A program made the translations under genes and the position numbers. Source: Chloroflexota bacterium (GTDB lineage: Bacteria; Chloroflexota; UBA6077; JACCZL01). Taken from it: DNA of 64,000 nucleotides. This document shows, in pieces, positions 9,491-63,109 of the stretch (positions are counted from its first letter, which is position 1; each line of letters opens with the position of its first letter). The stretch covers positions 1 to 64,000 of the forward strand of contig JADZEM010000016.1 of NCBI GenBank assembly GCA_020850535.1, read 5' to 3'. Under the pieces are notes generated by a model. That model ran no database searches, had not been told where the DNA came from, and saw nothing but the letters and a program-made list of their open reading frames with translations.

Positions 9491-9560
9491 GGCCCTCACC
9501 CCCCGGACCAAGTCGAGCCACCGGGCCTGTGCGCGGGAGAGGGGGTCGGGGGTGAGGGCC
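9491..9560. repeat. Family B palindromic element, intergenic
   Basis: The outer arms GGCCCTCACCCCCCGGACC and GGTCGGGGGTGAGGGCC are near-perfect complements. The core includes GCGGGAGAGGGGG. The first 37 bases are about 32/37 identical to bases inside imuB at 59385-59420, which links intergenic and intragenic copies. Confidence 0.8.
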
Positions 9561-21611: not shown

Positions 21612-21639
21612 CCCCCTCTCCCGCGTGCGGGAGAGGGGG
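21612..21639. repeat. Family B hairpin (perfect 13-bp arms)
   Basis: CCCCCTCTCCCGC and its perfect complement flank two bases. It is followed by GGGGGGTGAGGGG, as in other family B copies. Lying between an ATPase gene and the next importer, it may end or attenuate transcription. Confidence 0.8.
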
Positions 21640-21711
21640 CGGGGGGTGAGGGGCAACCGACGAGCGAGAGTACCTCTGGATCAAGCGACACACCCAATGG
21701 AGGGAGTGACC

Positions 21712-29191: not shown

Positions 29192-29304
29192 GGCCCTCAC
29201 CCCCCGACCCCCTCTCCCTGTGCGCGGGAGAGGGGGAGCCATGCGAATCTCGTGAATCTCCCCCTCTCCCGCGCACAGGGAGAGGGGGTCGGGGGGTGAG
29301 GGCC
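29192..29304. repeat. Perfect 47-bp inverted repeat (family B)
   Basis: Arms 29192-29238 and 29258-29304 are exact complements around a 19-base loop. Each arm also folds on itself (CCCCCTCTCCC with GGGAGAGGGGG). The arm begins GGCCCTCACCCCCCGACC. It lies inside an operon, between the binding-protein and permease genes. A partial further copy lies at 29150-29190. Confidence 0.95.
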
Positions 29305-56917: not shown

Positions 56918-58021
56918 ATGTCACGCGATACAGCAAGCGCGATCTCCGCAGTCCTCGGCGCGGTGCAGGAGCGCTGGGGCTCGCACAGCCTGACCCGTGG
57001 GTACAACGGCCCACGCGCGTCGGGCATGCTGGCGTTGCGGGCGCGGCACACCGCGCAGCCGGCCTTGCCGCCCTGGTGGCCGGGCGCGGAAGGCTACCTA
57101 CGGCCGAACCTGCTGGAGCTGCGTGGGCCGGACTCGTGCGGCAAGCTGGGCGTGGCGCTGCTCTGGCTGGCGGCGGCCTCGCGGGGCGGGCTGGTGGCCG
57201 TGGTGGATCAGGCAGGGACGTTCTACCCGCCGGCCGCCGCCGCGAGCGGGCTCGACCTGGCCCGGCTGGTGGTGGTGCGCCCGCCAGACCGACGAGAGGC
57301 AGTCGAGGCCGTCTCGCTGCTGCTGGCGAGCGCCGGCTTCGACGCGGTGTTGTGGCCGCTGGAGTGGAAGACGCGTCCGCGCGGGCTGGACTCGGTGAGG
57401 CTCTCGACGCTGGCCGCGCGCTCGAAAACCACGCTGCTGGCGCTGGTGACGGATCGGCGTCGGGCGTCGGGCAGCAGGCTGGCCGAGCACGCGGACTCCG
57501 ACGCCGACCGGCTCTTCCCGAGCGCCGATGTGCGGCTGCGGGTGACGGCCTGGGAGTGGCGCTGGCAGGATGGCGAGCTGGCGGGCGTCTCCCCGCGCCT
57601 CCGCACCGAGCGGCTCCGTGGCGCGCAACCCGGCCAGGAGTGGGAGCTGCGTCTCGAACAGCATCGGGCGGTGGACGCCTCGGGCATGGGGCCAGACGGT
57701 CTGCGCGAGGGCGCGTTCTGGACGCCCGGCCGTGAAGCATCCACGCGGGAAGCAGTTCGGGGCGGGATCGCCGCCGCCGCTGGCCGGACCGAACGCGTCG
57801 GCGGAAGCGCTCCAGGACCGCACATGCCAGGCCCGCATGCCCGGCATGCTGGACAGCAGCCCTCCGGCCGAGCCGGAGCCTGCCCACCGGCGGACCATCT
57901 GTGTCTGGCTGCCGCGCTTCCGCTCGGAGGTGGAGGCGCGCGAGCGACCGGACCCGCTGGGGCGGCCGATCTCGGTGTTCGATCCGAGCCGGCGGCGTCG
58001 CCCGCTGCTCGAACCGCCTGA
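56918..58021 (+). CDS. imuA: ImuA-like mutasome protein (RecA-related)
   Basis: The frame encodes 367 residues, starting at an ATG with a poor ribosome site. Residues about 60-225 have the RecA-like fold: LLELRGPDSCGKLGVALL, where GPDSCGKL (70-77) is a P-loop with the final Thr/Ser replaced by Leu, VAVVDQAGTFYP and ARLVVVRPPDRREAVEAVSLL. ATP binding is therefore doubtful, as in many ImuA proteins. ImuA links ImuB and DnaE2 to RecA in SOS mutagenesis. The last 65 residues are Gly/Pro/Ala-rich and overlap the start of imuB; they look like run-on coding in an alternative frame, so the natural stop may have been lost. Confidence 0.78.
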   Translation: MSRDTASAISAVLGAVQERWGSHSLTRGYNGPRASGMLALRARHTAQPALPPWWPGAEGYLRPNLLELRGPDSCGKLGVALLWLAAASRGGLVAVVDQAGTFYPPAAAASGLDLARLVVVRPPDRREAVEAVSLLLASAGFDAVLWPLEWKTRPRGLDSVRLSTLAARSKTTLLALVTDRRRASGSRLAEHADSDADRLFPSADVRLRVTAWEWRWQDGELAGVSPRLRTERLRGAQPGQEWELRLEQHRAVDASGMGPDGLREGAFWTPGREASTREAVRGGIAAAAGRTERVGGSAPGPHMPGPHARHAGQQPSGRAGACPPADHLCLAAALPLGGGGARATGPAGAADLGVRSEPAASPAARTA

Positions 58022-59705
58022 CCTGGGTGCTGGGCGTCAGGTTTCGGGTTCTGGGGAGACATCTCCTGAAACCCGAAACCCAGAACCCAGCACCTACGTG
58101 GGGCTGGCGTTGCGCGAGGCGGAGGTGCGGTGGCCGGACGTGTCGTATCGGGCGGATGCGCCGGCGGCGTACGCGCAGGCCATCGAGCCGGTGCTGGCGG
58201 TCCTGGCCGCCTTGAGCCCGGTTGTCGAGTGGAGCGCCGATCCGGCGGATGCATCGGCGGCCACGCGCCACGAGCCGTCTGCGCGGTACGCGGTCTTTCT
58301 GGATGGGACCGGCCTGGTGGCGCTGTACGGCTCCGAGGCGCGGCTGGCACGGCTGATCGTGCGGGAGCTGTGGGAGCAAGCGGGACATGCGGCGCAGGTG
58401 GGGATCGCCGATGGACGGTACGCAGCGTTGCTGGCGGCGCTGTGGGGGGGTGAGGTCGTTCCGCCCGGTGGGGACGCCGCCTTCCTGGCCCCGCTGCCCG
58501 TCTCCGTGCTGCCGCTGCCCCGGGAGGCGCGCGAGCGGCTGACGGCGCTCGGGGCGCGGACGCTGGCGGATGTCGGCCGGCTGCCCGGCAACGCGCTGCG
58601 CCACCGCTTCGGGCCGGATGGCGTGGTGGCCCGGGCGCTGGCGGCCGGCCACGACGAGGGGCCGCTGCGCCCCCGTCCGATGCCGCTCCAGCTGCACGAT
58701 GCGCTCGATCTGGAGTGGGTCGAGACGAGTCTGGATCGGCTGCTGTTCCTGCTGAAGCGGCTGGCCGACCGGCTGAGCGTGCGGCTGGCGCAGCATGGGC
58801 TGGGTTGTGGCCGGCTGCGAATCGTGTGGCTGCTGGACGCGGCCGGGCTGACGACCGGCGACGACCTGAGCGGGATCGACGGAGACGACGGGGCGGCAGA
58901 AGGCGACCACCGACGTGCGGCAGACGCAGACGGCTTGTCCGACGAGGGGACGGTCGTCTCCATCGTGCGGCTGGCCGAGCCAGGGGCCTCTGGCTCGACG
59001 CTGCTGGAGCATCTGCGCTGGCATGTGGAGGGGCTGCGACCGGAGCGCTTCCGCGATCCGCACACCGGGCGGCAGCGGGGCGTGCGCGGCCTGCTGGTGG
59101 AAGCGGAGGAGCTGGGGCCGTTGGGTGGCCGGCAGCTGGCGCTGCTGCCCGGCGAGGACGGCCGCACGCCTGAGCCAGAGCGGCTGCTCTCGGCTGCGCG
59201 GACGCTGGCCCGGCTGCAGACGCGCTGGGGCGAGACGTGTGTGCAGCAGGCCGAGCTGGTGGCGTCGCGGCGGCCAGAGCAGGCGTTCCGCTGGCGCGAG
59301 CTGACCTCCACGGCGCTGCTCGCCGCGCCCCCCGCCTCTCCGACACGGCGAGGGGGGCGAAAGCTGGCCGGACGGCAGACGAAGGCCCTCACCCTCCGCC
59401 CCAGTCGGGCCACCGGGCCGGGGGGTGAGGTCTGGCTGCTTTCGCTGGCTGCCGTCCCGGAGGAGGTTCAGATTGACCGGGGGGGCCGGCAGCCGAACGG
59501 GCGGCGGCGGCCCGGCAGCGTCACCCAGGGGAAGCGGGTGCGGCGCATCGTGCAGGCGGCCGGGCCGTGGCGGCTGGTGGAGCGCTGGGTGGCCGAGCCT
59601 GTCGCCCGGGACGCCTACCACGTGGTGCTGGCGGACGGCACAGCCTGCTGGCTGGTGCACGACCGTCTGACCGACCGCTGGCTGCTGCTCGGGACGTTCG
59701 ACTGA
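57837..59705 (+). CDS. imuB: ImuB-like Y-family polymerase homologue
   Basis: The protein has 622 residues from ATG 57837 (ATG 57846 is an alternative; neither has a strong ribosome site). It opens RRTICVWLPRFRSEVEARER, the Y-family palm start, but lacks the catalytic acidic residues of active polymerases, as usual for ImuB. Other signatures are GLALREAEVRWPDVSYR and LPREARERLTALGARTLADV, a helix-hairpin-helix thumb. ImuB is the clamp-binding hub of the ImuA-ImuB-DnaE2 mutasome. Two palindrome-derived inserts interrupt it: near residues 63-86 (58022-58098) and around 497-532 (59327-59431). Its stop overlaps dnaE2 by one base. Confidence 0.82.
   Translation: MPGMLDSSPPAEPEPAHRRTICVWLPRFRSEVEARERPDPLGRPISVFDPSRRRRPLLEPPDLGAGRQVSGSGETSPETRNPEPSTYVGLALREAEVRWPDVSYRADAPAAYAQAIEPVLAVLAALSPVVEWSADPADASAATRHEPSARYAVFLDGTGLVALYGSEARLARLIVRELWEQAGHAAQVGIADGRYAALLAALWGGEVVPPGGDAAFLAPLPVSVLPLPREARERLTALGARTLADVGRLPGNALRHRFGPDGVVARALAAGHDEGPLRPRPMPLQLHDALDLEWVETSLDRLLFLLKRLADRLSVRLAQHGLGCGRLRIVWLLDAAGLTTGDDLSGIDGDDGAAEGDHRRAADADGLSDEGTVVSIVRLAEPGASGSTLLEHLRWHVEGLRPERFRDPHTGRQRGVRGLLVEAEELGPLGGRQLALLPGEDGRTPEPERLLSAARTLARLQTRWGETCVQQAELVASRRPEQAFRWRELTSTALLAAPPASPTRRGGRKLAGRQTKALTLRPSRATGPGGEVWLLSLAAVPEEVQIDRGGRQPNGRRRPGSVTQGKRVRRIVQAAGPWRLVERWVAEPVARDAYHVVLADGTACWLVHDRLTDRWLLLGTFD
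58023..58097. repeat. Palindromic insert inside imuB
   Basis: Two arms of about 35 bases, roughly 80 % complementary, share GGTGCTGGG and GTTTCGGGTT; the centre is ACAT. Translated in frame it gives a Gly/Ser/Glu/Pro-rich stretch with no counterpart expected between the palm strands LLEPPDL and YVGLALREAEV. Confidence 0.8.
59385..59431. repeat. Family B element inside imuB
   Basis: GGCCCTCACCC and GGGGTGAGG form the outer arms. The first 36 bases match the intergenic element at 9491-9527 at about 32 of 37 aligned positions. A second small hairpin (CGCCCCCC and GGGGGGCG, 59327-59360) lies just upstream. Both are read through as ImuB coding sequence. Confidence 0.8.
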
Positions 59706-62700
59706 TGCCAGACACCGAGTCAGACCGTGGGTCAGACACCAAGTCGGGCGTCGGGGCGCTTGGCTACGCCGAGCTGCACTGCCACAGCAACTTCTCGTTC
59801 CTGGACGGCACGTCAGATCCGGAAGCGCTGGTGGAACGGGCCATCGAGCTGGGGCTGTCGGCCATCGCGCTGACGGACAGCCACGGGCTGTATGGCGTGG
59901 TGCGGTTCGCGGCGGCCGCGAAGGCGCGAGCGCTGCGCGGCGAGCCGTCCATCCAGGTGATCCTCGGGGCCGAGCTGCTGCTGGAGGGCGACGAGCGCAT
60001 CGTGTTGCTGGTGCAGAACCTGACGGGCTACCGGAACCTGTGCTGGCTCATCGACCGGGCGCACCGGCAGACGCTGGCTCCGGATGACATCCGTCAGTTG
60101 CCGCTCACCCCGTGTGAACCCCTCACCCCCCGGCCGGGGGGTGAGGGGCATCCACACATCCCGCTGCACCTCCTGGCCGACCGTACCGAGGGCCTGATCG
60201 CGCTGGTGCGGCCGGCCTCCGCCTTCGAGGACGCGCTGGCCGAGCGGCTGGCCGAGTACCAGCGATACATCCTCGACGAGGATCTGTACGTCGAGATCAA
60301 CCGCCACCTCGTGCCGGGCGAGGAGCGCCACAACGCCCGGCTGCGGCGGGCGGCCGAGGCGCGCGGCCTCAAGACCGTCGCCGCGAACGCCGTGCACTAC
60401 GCCACCAGGGACCGCGCCCTGCTGCACGACGTGGTGACGGCGATCCGCCTGCGCGTGCCGCTGGAGCAGGCGGCCCAACCGGCCGGCGCGGAGCCGCCAC
60501 TGCTCTTCCCCAACGACGAGCGCTGCCTGAAAGGGCCGGACGAGATGGCGCACCTGTTCCGGGGGCACACGGAGGAGTTGACCAGGACCGTCGAGATCGC
60601 GCGGCGCTGCGCATTCACCCTGGCCGATCTCCACTACGAGTTCCCGCTGCCGGACAACCTCCCGCCGGGCCGTGACCCGTACGACATCCTGGTAGAAGAA
60701 GTCTGGCAGGGCGCGCGCTGCTACTATCCGCGCATCACGCGGGACGTCCATGACCGCATCGTGCAGGAGCTGGAGATCGTCCAGCTCCTGAACTTGCCGG
60801 GCTACCTGCTGGTCTTCAAGGACATCGTCGATTTCTGCCGCCGGGAGCGCATCCTCGTCAGCATCCGGGGGTCTGCGCCGGCCTCCGTGCTGCTCTACTG
60901 CCTGGGGTTGTGCCCCATCGACCCGCTGGAGCACGGCCTCCTCTTCGAGCGGTTCGCCTCGCCGGAGCGCAAGGAGTATCCCGACATCGACCTGGACATC
61001 GCGCATGAGGACCGCGAGCGCGTGATCCAGTACGTCTACGAGACGTATGGCCGCGCCCGCGTCTCGATGGTCTGTGAGGTGAACACCTACCGCGCCAGGA
61101 GCGCCATCCGGGATGTCGCGTTCGCGATGGGGCTGCCACAGCACCAGATCGACGTGCTCGCCAAGACCGTCGACCTGTACGACCGCCGATCCCTCGACAC
61201 GCTGCTGGAGACCGGCGGCAGCGGCCTGCCCGTTGACGGTCGCACGGCGACGCTCCTGATCTCGCTCTGTCAGCAGCTCGTCAACGCGCCGCGCCACCTC
61301 TCGATTCATGTCGGCGGCATGGTCATCTCGGCGCGCTCCTTGCACGAGGTGGTGCACAACCAGCCGGCGCGGATGCCGGGCCGCACCATCATCCCCTGGG
61401 ACAAAGACGACATCGTGCTGCTGGCCGAGCTGTTCGAGGTCCACCTGATCAAGCTCGATCTGCTGGGCCTGGGGATGCTGAAAGTCATCTCGCGGGTCTT
61501 CGAGCAACTGGAGGCGCGCGGCGAGGAGCCACTCCGGCTGCACGGCTTCCGCTACGACGAGCGCGTCTACGACAGCATCTGCAAAGGCGACACCATCGGC
61601 CTGTTCCAGATCGAGTCGCGCGCGCAGATCAGCTTCCTGCCCAGGCTCGAGCCGCGCACCCTCAGCGACGTGGCGATCAGCGTCGGGGCGATCCGCCCCG
61701 GCCCGGGCGCGACGGGCGCCGGCGGCCGGATCGCGCGGCGGCGGCGCGGCCTGGAGCCGATCACCTACCCCCACCCGGAGCTGCAACCTGTGCTGGAGCA
61801 GACCTCGGGTGTGCTGCTCTGGCAGGAGCAGGCGATGCAGGTGGCCCAGATCATGGCCGGCTACACCCTGGGCGAGGCCGAGCAGTTCCGCCGCGCCATG
61901 ACCCACAAGCGCTCCTACGAGGCGATGGAGGCGCTCTGCGAGGATATGGTGCAGCGGATGCTGAAGCTCGGGCGCTCGCAGGCCCTGGCCGAGGAGATCC
62001 GCCGGATGGTCATCGGGTTTGCCGGGTACGGCTTCCCGCGCGCCCATGCCTACCCGTTCGCACACCTGGCGCTGGTCTCGGCCACCCTCAAGCTGAACTA
62101 TCCGGCCGAGTACCTGGGCGCGCTCCTGAACAGCCAGCCGATGGGGTTCTACGCGCCGCACACGCTGATCTGGGACGCCAGCCGGCACGGGGTGCGGGTG
62201 CTGCCCGTGGACGTGAACGCGAGCGGGTGGGAGTGTGCGTTGGAAGATGTGCCCCCCACCCCCGATCAGGAACCCCGCACCCCCCGCCCCGCTGCGCGGC
62301 GCGAATATCGACTTCGTCGACATCCTCTCCCGCACGCGGGGCGGGGGGTGCGGGGTGAGGTCACCTCGCTTCGGCTCGGCTTCAACATGGTGCGCGGGCT
62401 GGGTCCGCACGCCCGTGAGGCGCTGGAACGGGAGCGTGCACGCGGGCCGTACCAGTCCATCGCGGACTTTGTACGGCGGACGGGGCTGGGTCGAGACGCC
62501 GTCGAGCGGCTGGCGGAGGTCGGGGCGTTCCTGCGCTTCGACGAGCGGCGAGCAGCGATCTGGCAGGCCGGGGAGCTGGCCGGCCTGAGCAGCCCGCAGC
62601 ATTTGCCCGGCCTCGCGGATCAACTGGCTGAGCGCGCGGACCTCCCGCCGATGGGCGCCTGGGAGGCCACCCGCGCCGACTATGGCGGCCTGGGCCTCTC

Positions 62701-63109
62701 GGTGGACCGCCACCTTGTCAGCTTCTACCGGCCGCGTCTGCGCCTGCACAACGTCCGTACGGCCGCCGAGCTGGAGCACCGCCGAGGCGGCCCGGTCAGG
62801 ATCGGCGGCATCGTGATCTGCCGGCAGCGCCCGGAGACGGCCAACGACTTCATGTTCATGACGCTGGAAGATGAGACCGGGCTGGTCAACGTCATCGTGC
62901 AGCCCCAGGTCTACCACGCGCTCACGCGGGCGCTGCGCGGTGAGCCGCTGCTCATCATTGAGGGGATCCTTCAGCGGGAGGGCATCGTCATGGACGTCAT
63001 TGTGCGGAAGGCGTGGCCGTTCAGCGTCCTTGAGGGTGGCACGGATAGTGACACAGGTGGGCCGGACGGCCGGCCAGCCCCATCTGTCCCCTCCCACGAT
63101 TTCCGCTGA
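59705..63109 (+). CDS. dnaE2: Error-prone DNA polymerase III alpha subunit
   Basis: The protein has 1134 residues, and its ATG overlaps the imuB stop (TGATG). The PHP domain begins YAELHCHSNFSFLDGTSDPE, with LTDSHGLYGVVRF. The palm has YPDIDLDIAHEDRERV with Asp427, Asp429 and Asp431. YGFPRAHAYPFAHLALVSA and GRIARRRRGLEPITYPHPEL are DnaE2 marks, as is the OB fold near the end (VRIGGIVICRQRPETANDF). With ImuA and ImuB it performs translesion synthesis after DNA damage. Two in-frame palindromic inserts lie in it: at about residues 139-148 in the PHP domain, and about residues 850-885, before LGFNMVRGL. Otherwise its length is about 60-70 residues more than typical. Confidence 0.93.
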   Translation: MPDTESDRGSDTKSGVGALGYAELHCHSNFSFLDGTSDPEALVERAIELGLSAIALTDSHGLYGVVRFAAAAKARALRGEPSIQVILGAELLLEGDERIVLLVQNLTGYRNLCWLIDRAHRQTLAPDDIRQLPLTPCEPLTPRPGGEGHPHIPLHLLADRTEGLIALVRPASAFEDALAERLAEYQRYILDEDLYVEINRHLVPGEERHNARLRRAAEARGLKTVAANAVHYATRDRALLHDVVTAIRLRVPLEQAAQPAGAEPPLLFPNDERCLKGPDEMAHLFRGHTEELTRTVEIARRCAFTLADLHYEFPLPDNLPPGRDPYDILVEEVWQGARCYYPRITRDVHDRIVQELEIVQLLNLPGYLLVFKDIVDFCRRERILVSIRGSAPASVLLYCLGLCPIDPLEHGLLFERFASPERKEYPDIDLDIAHEDRERVIQYVYETYGRARVSMVCEVNTYRARSAIRDVAFAMGLPQHQIDVLAKTVDLYDRRSLDTLLETGGSGLPVDGRTATLLISLCQQLVNAPRHLSIHVGGMVISARSLHEVVHNQPARMPGRTIIPWDKDDIVLLAELFEVHLIKLDLLGLGMLKVISRVFEQLEARGEEPLRLHGFRYDERVYDSICKGDTIGLFQIESRAQISFLPRLEPRTLSDVAISVGAIRPGPGATGAGGRIARRRRGLEPITYPHPELQPVLEQTSGVLLWQEQAMQVAQIMAGYTLGEAEQFRRAMTHKRSYEAMEALCEDMVQRMLKLGRSQALAEEIRRMVIGFAGYGFPRAHAYPFAHLALVSATLKLNYPAEYLGALLNSQPMGFYAPHTLIWDASRHGVRVLPVDVNASGWECALEDVPPTPDQEPRTPRPAARREYRLRRHPLPHAGRGVRGEVTSLRLGFNMVRGLGPHAREALERERARGPYQSIADFVRRTGLGRDAVERLAEVGAFLRFDERRAAIWQAGELAGLSSPQHLPGLADQLAERADLPPMGAWEATRADYGGLGLSVDRHLVSFYRPRLRLHNVRTAAELEHRRGGPVRIGGIVICRQRPETANDFMFMTLEDETGLVNVIVQPQVYHALTRALRGEPLLIIEGILQREGIVMDVIVRKAWPFSVLEGGTDSDTGGPDGRPAPSVPSHDFR
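60119..60148. repeat. Perfect 30-bp palindrome inside dnaE2
   Basis: CCCCTCACCCCCCGG is followed directly by its exact complement. It is the core of the family B repeats. Read in frame it contributes a Pro/Gly-rich turn in the PHP domain. Confidence 0.95.
62272..62356. repeat. Perfect 21-bp inverted repeat inside dnaE2
   Basis: Arms 62272-62292 and 62336-62356 are exact complements (left arm begins ACCCCGCACCCCCC) around a 43-base loop that contains a smaller palindrome TCGACTTCGTCGA. The element encodes about 28 Pro/Arg-rich residues. Confidence 0.95.

Follow-up and report, generated by a model that had tools for sequence, protein, structure and literature searches.

The 64-kb window, the whole stretch of DNA analysed here, carries an intact dnaE2 gene (59705–63109, + strand) encoding an error-prone DNA polymerase. 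The product matches NCBIfam NF004225 (error-prone DNA polymerase) above its cut-off and comprises PHP (residues 23–201), polymerase (328–588), fingers (591–754) and HHH (829–951) domains; its predicted fold resembles DNA polymerase III alpha structures. An imuB-like gene (57570–59705, + strand) is located upstream in the same operon and ends in a stop codon that shares bases with the start codon of dnaE2. The imuB-like product has just weak matches to the Pol IV family, all under the cut-off, and the ImuB proteins of L193 and L194 are 34–37% identical to it.

Window positions 60119–60148, CCCCTCACCCCCCGGCCGGGGGGTGAGGGG (halves CCCCTCACCCCCCGG and CCGGGGGGTGAGGGG), lie in dnaE2, are their own reverse complement and form a perfect, loop-free palindrome of 30 bp inside the PHP coding sequence, as originally predicted. 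The palindrome begins exactly at codon 139 and encodes, in frame, residues 139–148 (PLTPRPGGEG), which are contained in the PHP domain as delimited by Pfam. No other perfect palindrome in the window is longer than 18 bp. With independent bases, the expected number of perfect palindromes of at least 30 bp is 4 × 10⁻⁴ per 64 kb and 0.05 per 7.65-Mb genome; when 64-kb sequences were simulated 40 times under a first-order Markov model, the longest palindrome never exceeded 20 bp. The hairpin is lengthened by imperfect flanking arms, GTGTG and CACAC, and no GTAG or CGTC tag adjoins the palindrome in the sequence inspected there.

The palindrome is part of a longer extra segment (60083–60154, + strand; about residues 127–150), the RNA of which has a predicted folding energy of −41.2 kcal/mol (z −3.4). 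When the protein is aligned with about 110 DnaE2/DnaE homologues, some 20–21 of its residues (about 127–148) are unmatched; the two orthologues nearest to it (57–58% identical) read RAHMT-NEKDMPALPFSF where the window DnaE2 has about 21 added residues. The expectation that residues 139–148 would be lacking in homologues holds for these orthologues and for the other homologues shown. The segment exceeds the palindrome, which leaves about 11 of its residues unaccounted for.

A second extra segment, at about residues 850–887 in the homologue alignment, holds another in-frame inverted repeat (62272–62356; residues about 856–884), with perfect 21-bp arms, CCCCGCACCCCCCGCCCCGC, and a 43-nt centre. 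This insert is missing in L042 and L043, and 60 bp of it are found elsewhere in the genome at 92% identity. Compared with the arm of the repeat family described below, one of its arms has a T to G change and the other arm is changed to match. The AlphaFold2 model of DnaE2 has a mean pLDDT of 86, with values below 50 in four stretches, namely both termini and residues 128–146 and 856–883; the only internal disordered stretches thus coincide with the two inserts. According to the model, the extra residues around the palindrome form part of a surface-type loop for which no structure is predicted, and the polymerase domains and conserved residues are unmoved.

The BoxC/TM repeat family of the genome

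The arms of the palindrome match the outer arms of a dispersed repeat family over 13–15 bases. The half motif of this family, GGGAGAGGGG..GGGGTGAGG, occurs at 150 sites in the 7.65-Mb genome (reversed control, 0). Judged by its sequence architecture, the family belongs to the BoxC/TM repeats, which are potential intrastrand triplexes. In the unit found here, a spacer separates a C-rich/G-rich hairpin, CCCTCTCCC..GGGAGAGGG, from a third, G-rich strand, GGGTGAGGG, downstream of it. In 1.68 of the 7.65 Mb, a sample biased to repeat-bearing regions, this architecture (hairpin CCCTC(T/G)CCC/GGGAGAGGG plus GGGTGAGGG) is represented by 107 units; the same 1.68 Mb contain 36 inverted pairs with the arms outermost, and the reversed control was 0 in both counts. 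Full copies are mostly inverted pairs of about 109 bp in which the third-strand arms are outermost. A blastn search of E. coli genomes with a unit of the window type gave no match, so kinship with E. coli BoxC rests on common architecture and not on alignment. Of 151 related genomes, 53 have the half motif; copy numbers range from 0 to about 390, and no link to kinship is visible.

Four 109-bp copies (L160:4629, L164:14925, L268:5248 and L284:4321) are bounded on one outer side by an extra TGATTnTTTCCTGTGGTAAAGG, as would be expected were the pair a portion of a larger MITE-like element. As a longer TIR, TGATTnTTTCCTGTGGTAAAGG was rejected, being present on one side of several copies and tied to no transposase. 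Y1-type (RAYT) tyrosine transposases (PF01797) had no match in the whole genome, with positive controls, and no mobiliser of the family was found.

Three other members are located in the window: a full-length 109-bp inverted BoxC/TM pair (29194–29302), a single intact unit (21614–21653, + strand) and a variant in which the outer arms are the same and the centre has diverged (9493–9558). The original prediction had the core of the palindrome recurring at 9491, 21612 and 29192, which proved partly correct. The exact 13-mer CCCCTCACCCCCC is found only in the palindrome and, reversed, at 21641, but the repeats at 9493 and 29194 have CCCTCACCCCCC, without the first C of the 13-mer. Similarly, other genome copies do exist at the level of the family, which numbers well over a hundred, mostly intergenic and some inside genes, but the exact 30-mer is single-copy, having no other genome copy within 3 mismatches. 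Because of this uniqueness, the 60119 copy is regarded as a collapsed or relaxed family member and not as a verbatim copy. It comprises the two outer third-strand arms of BoxC/TM only, joined tail to tail without a loop; since the middle strand is lacking, not all three triplex strands are present and a triplex is impossible, as befits a derived, collapsed copy. Three more arm-only relaxed palindromes, with centres of 2–11 nt, occur elsewhere in the genome. Two of the three reading frames of the family arms are free of stops, and the dnaE2 reading at 60119 is LTPRP..GGEG.

The palindrome might instead have arisen in place, an arm-like CTCACCCC in the loop being copied inversely by template switching in replication, with no family element arriving. 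The uniqueness of the 30-mer, the excess length of the insert and the presence upstream of CCGCTCACCCC, which resembles half an arm, are all compatible with such an origin, but the 13–15-base match to the outer arms of a dispersed family and the arm-only palindromes at three other places make it unlikely. An artefact of a metagenome-derived or draft assembly is extremely improbable: the family repeat does stand at the ends of several of the 227 contigs of the assembly, but the palindrome is short, lies mid-contig and does not interrupt the frame, and the protein can be aligned to either side of it.

In-frame copies in other genes and other bacteria

The upstream gene of the same operon carries further repeats. 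An inverted repeat of another family, of the GAAACCC/CAGAACCC type, lies in frame in imuB (58026–58094, + strand), has copies elsewhere in the genome and is missing in the ImuB of L193 and L194. A degenerate BoxC-type stretch, KALTLRPSRATGPGGEV, is located in the C-terminal linker of imuB (59386–59430, + strand), and 40 bp of it recur elsewhere in the genome at 92.5% identity. Both repeats fall in stretches that are extra with respect to the two nearest ImuB proteins. The one at 58026–58094 is unmistakable as a repeat, but the C-terminal linker aligns only loosely. A repeat type akin to GAAACCC/CAGAACCC was also observed in the DnaE2 of a genome of the same order (L046).

By a rough codon model, and in a sample biased to repeat regions, 62 multi-seed copies off contig ends divide into 8 that sit in an open frame flanked on either side by coding signal and 54 without this context. 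Homology supports in-frame copies in KdpB, an amidohydrolase, a PPDK/PEP-utilising (PEP-synthase-like) enzyme and glycosyltransferases, as well as single-seed copies in UvrC and an O-antigen ligase. In KdpB (L154:3516-5939, − strand), 76 residues replace 14 of the E. coli protein, making it about 62 residues longer between the matched stretches. In UvrC (L258:1232-3472, − strand), the RNase H domain contains in-frame inserts of BoxC type and spans 241 residues against a profile of 159 positions. An MFS case (L294) was set aside, as the repeat may lie upstream of the true start; many 14-bp loop-free palindromes from the survey were also set aside as chance occurrences. The LTP/GGEG frame is used in 8 of the 9 usable in-frame cases, and the two frames are open about equally often in full copies (LTP/GGEG in 57 of 64, PSP in 54 of 64); a preference for the LTP/GGEG frame among in-gene copies is suggestive only.

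DnaE2 proteins of other bacteria have comparable inserts. Complete BoxC/TM units are found in frame in the DnaE2 of a planctomycete (L075), where they form an inverted pair and where the genome has 162 half-sites, and of two Betaproteobacteria (L117 and L095). Repeat-type inserts occupy the loop of the second insert of the window DnaE2 in L075, L095, L128 and L068, and inserts in the PHP region are present in L117, L123 and L067. The L117 insert is missing in the sister species L309 and L310 (80–81% identical), while another, L311, has a comparable insert at the corresponding position. At the sequence level, L117 and L309/L310 provide a direct comparison of filled and empty sites; the insertion in the window organism is judged against orthologues 57–58% identical. 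In an alphaproteobacterial DnaE2 (L136:6303-6446), two different hairpin repeats make up an insert of 55 residues.

Inverted repeats with arms of at least 14 number 4 per 260 kb of DnaE2 and 7 per 388 kb of other conserved neighbouring ORFs, the latter including some antisense ORFs. These counts do not support extra targeting of DnaE2, its inverted-repeat density being no higher than that of conserved neighbouring genes. The same figures weigh against a selected function of the insert, in which an mRNA hairpin or a Pro/Gly-rich loop would tune the expression or activity of the mutasome. The strong predicted hairpin and the multiple inserts within one imuB-dnaE2 operon favour such a function, as does the speculation of Di Nocera et al. 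2013 (PMC3733652) that activity is changed by REPs lying in repair genes, but the insert residues are conserved in no homologue and unrelated genes carry inserts too; a selected function is therefore rated as very unlikely. It is also doubtful that the DnaE2 loops (the PHP loop, 850–888 and 945–980) are preferred, repeated landing places for the palindromic repeats of each genome across phyla, with the resulting variation of the SOS mutasome as one source of lineage differences in mutability.

Origin of the dnaE2 insert and known systems

The 60119 palindrome is probably a degenerate member of the BoxC/TM family of the genome that arrived, in frame, within the coding part of dnaE2 and is now translated with it. 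An inverted BoxC/TM pair, or a unit, would have inserted at the PHP loop of DnaE2, and the centre of the inserted pair would then have been deleted, leaving the outer arms; deletion at the base of long hairpins is the usual outcome. The insert would persist as near-neutral, since it is in frame, has no stops and lies in a tolerant loop. The earlier claim of a mobile element inserted in frame agrees with the segment being extra relative to homologues and with the dispersal of the family, whose mobility is inferred. Against this reading count the uniqueness of the 30-mer, an insert longer than the palindrome and a genome in which no Y1/REP transposase was found. On the structural model, the locus appears to be a clear case of a non-coding repeat turned into protein sequence with the predicted fold unharmed.

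Rickettsia palindromic elements (RPEs), to which the palindrome had been likened, are the classic case of in-frame palindromic elements (review PMC10969869). The likeness holds in so far as a palindromic repeat lies in frame in unrelated, conserved genes that are functional in appearance and have homologues without it. However, the family is BoxC/TM and not RPE: by description, RPEs are set apart by a length of about 100–150 bp, against 30 bp for the 60119 copy, and by another sequence and host.

The location in an SOS polymerase had been put forward as new, but Di Nocera et al. 2013 (PMC3733652) had already described in-frame REPs in dnaE2, uvr and other genes, so in-frame palindromes, including those in DnaE2, are published. 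These intragenic REPs resemble the present inserts as short in-frame palindromes in dnaE2, uvr and other genes, with frequent double inserts per gene. They differ in being GTAG/CGTC-tagged, the GTAG class being tied to Y1 transposases, whereas the inserts here are BoxC-type in a genome without Y1. Since such inserts recur in the DnaE2 of Planctomycetes and Betaproteobacteria and sister species are insert-free, the published speculation that mutability is altered by repeats in repair genes becomes directly testable.

The closest system is the BoxC/TM/PIT (potential intrastrand triplex) repeat as defined by Holder et al. 2015 (PMC4666352), with which the family shares the order CCCTC(T/G)CCC-loop-GGGAGAGGG-spacer-GGGTGAGGG, inverted pairs, and centre-less pairs leaving a hairpin. 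In the 'palindrome effect' of that study, inverted TM pairs are partly deleted in both units and a hairpin is left; the arms-only palindrome at 60119 is the same end product. Two differences stand out: the 60119 copy, without its middle strand, has lost the potential for a triplex, and TM repeats of E. coli are always intergenic, whereas members here lie in frame in genes. To the published cases, the present one adds BoxC/TM repeats as elements that can lie in frame, together with well-resolved parallel cases in several groups, so that widespread repeats reported to be strictly intergenic in E. coli are now tied to in-frame gene insertion.
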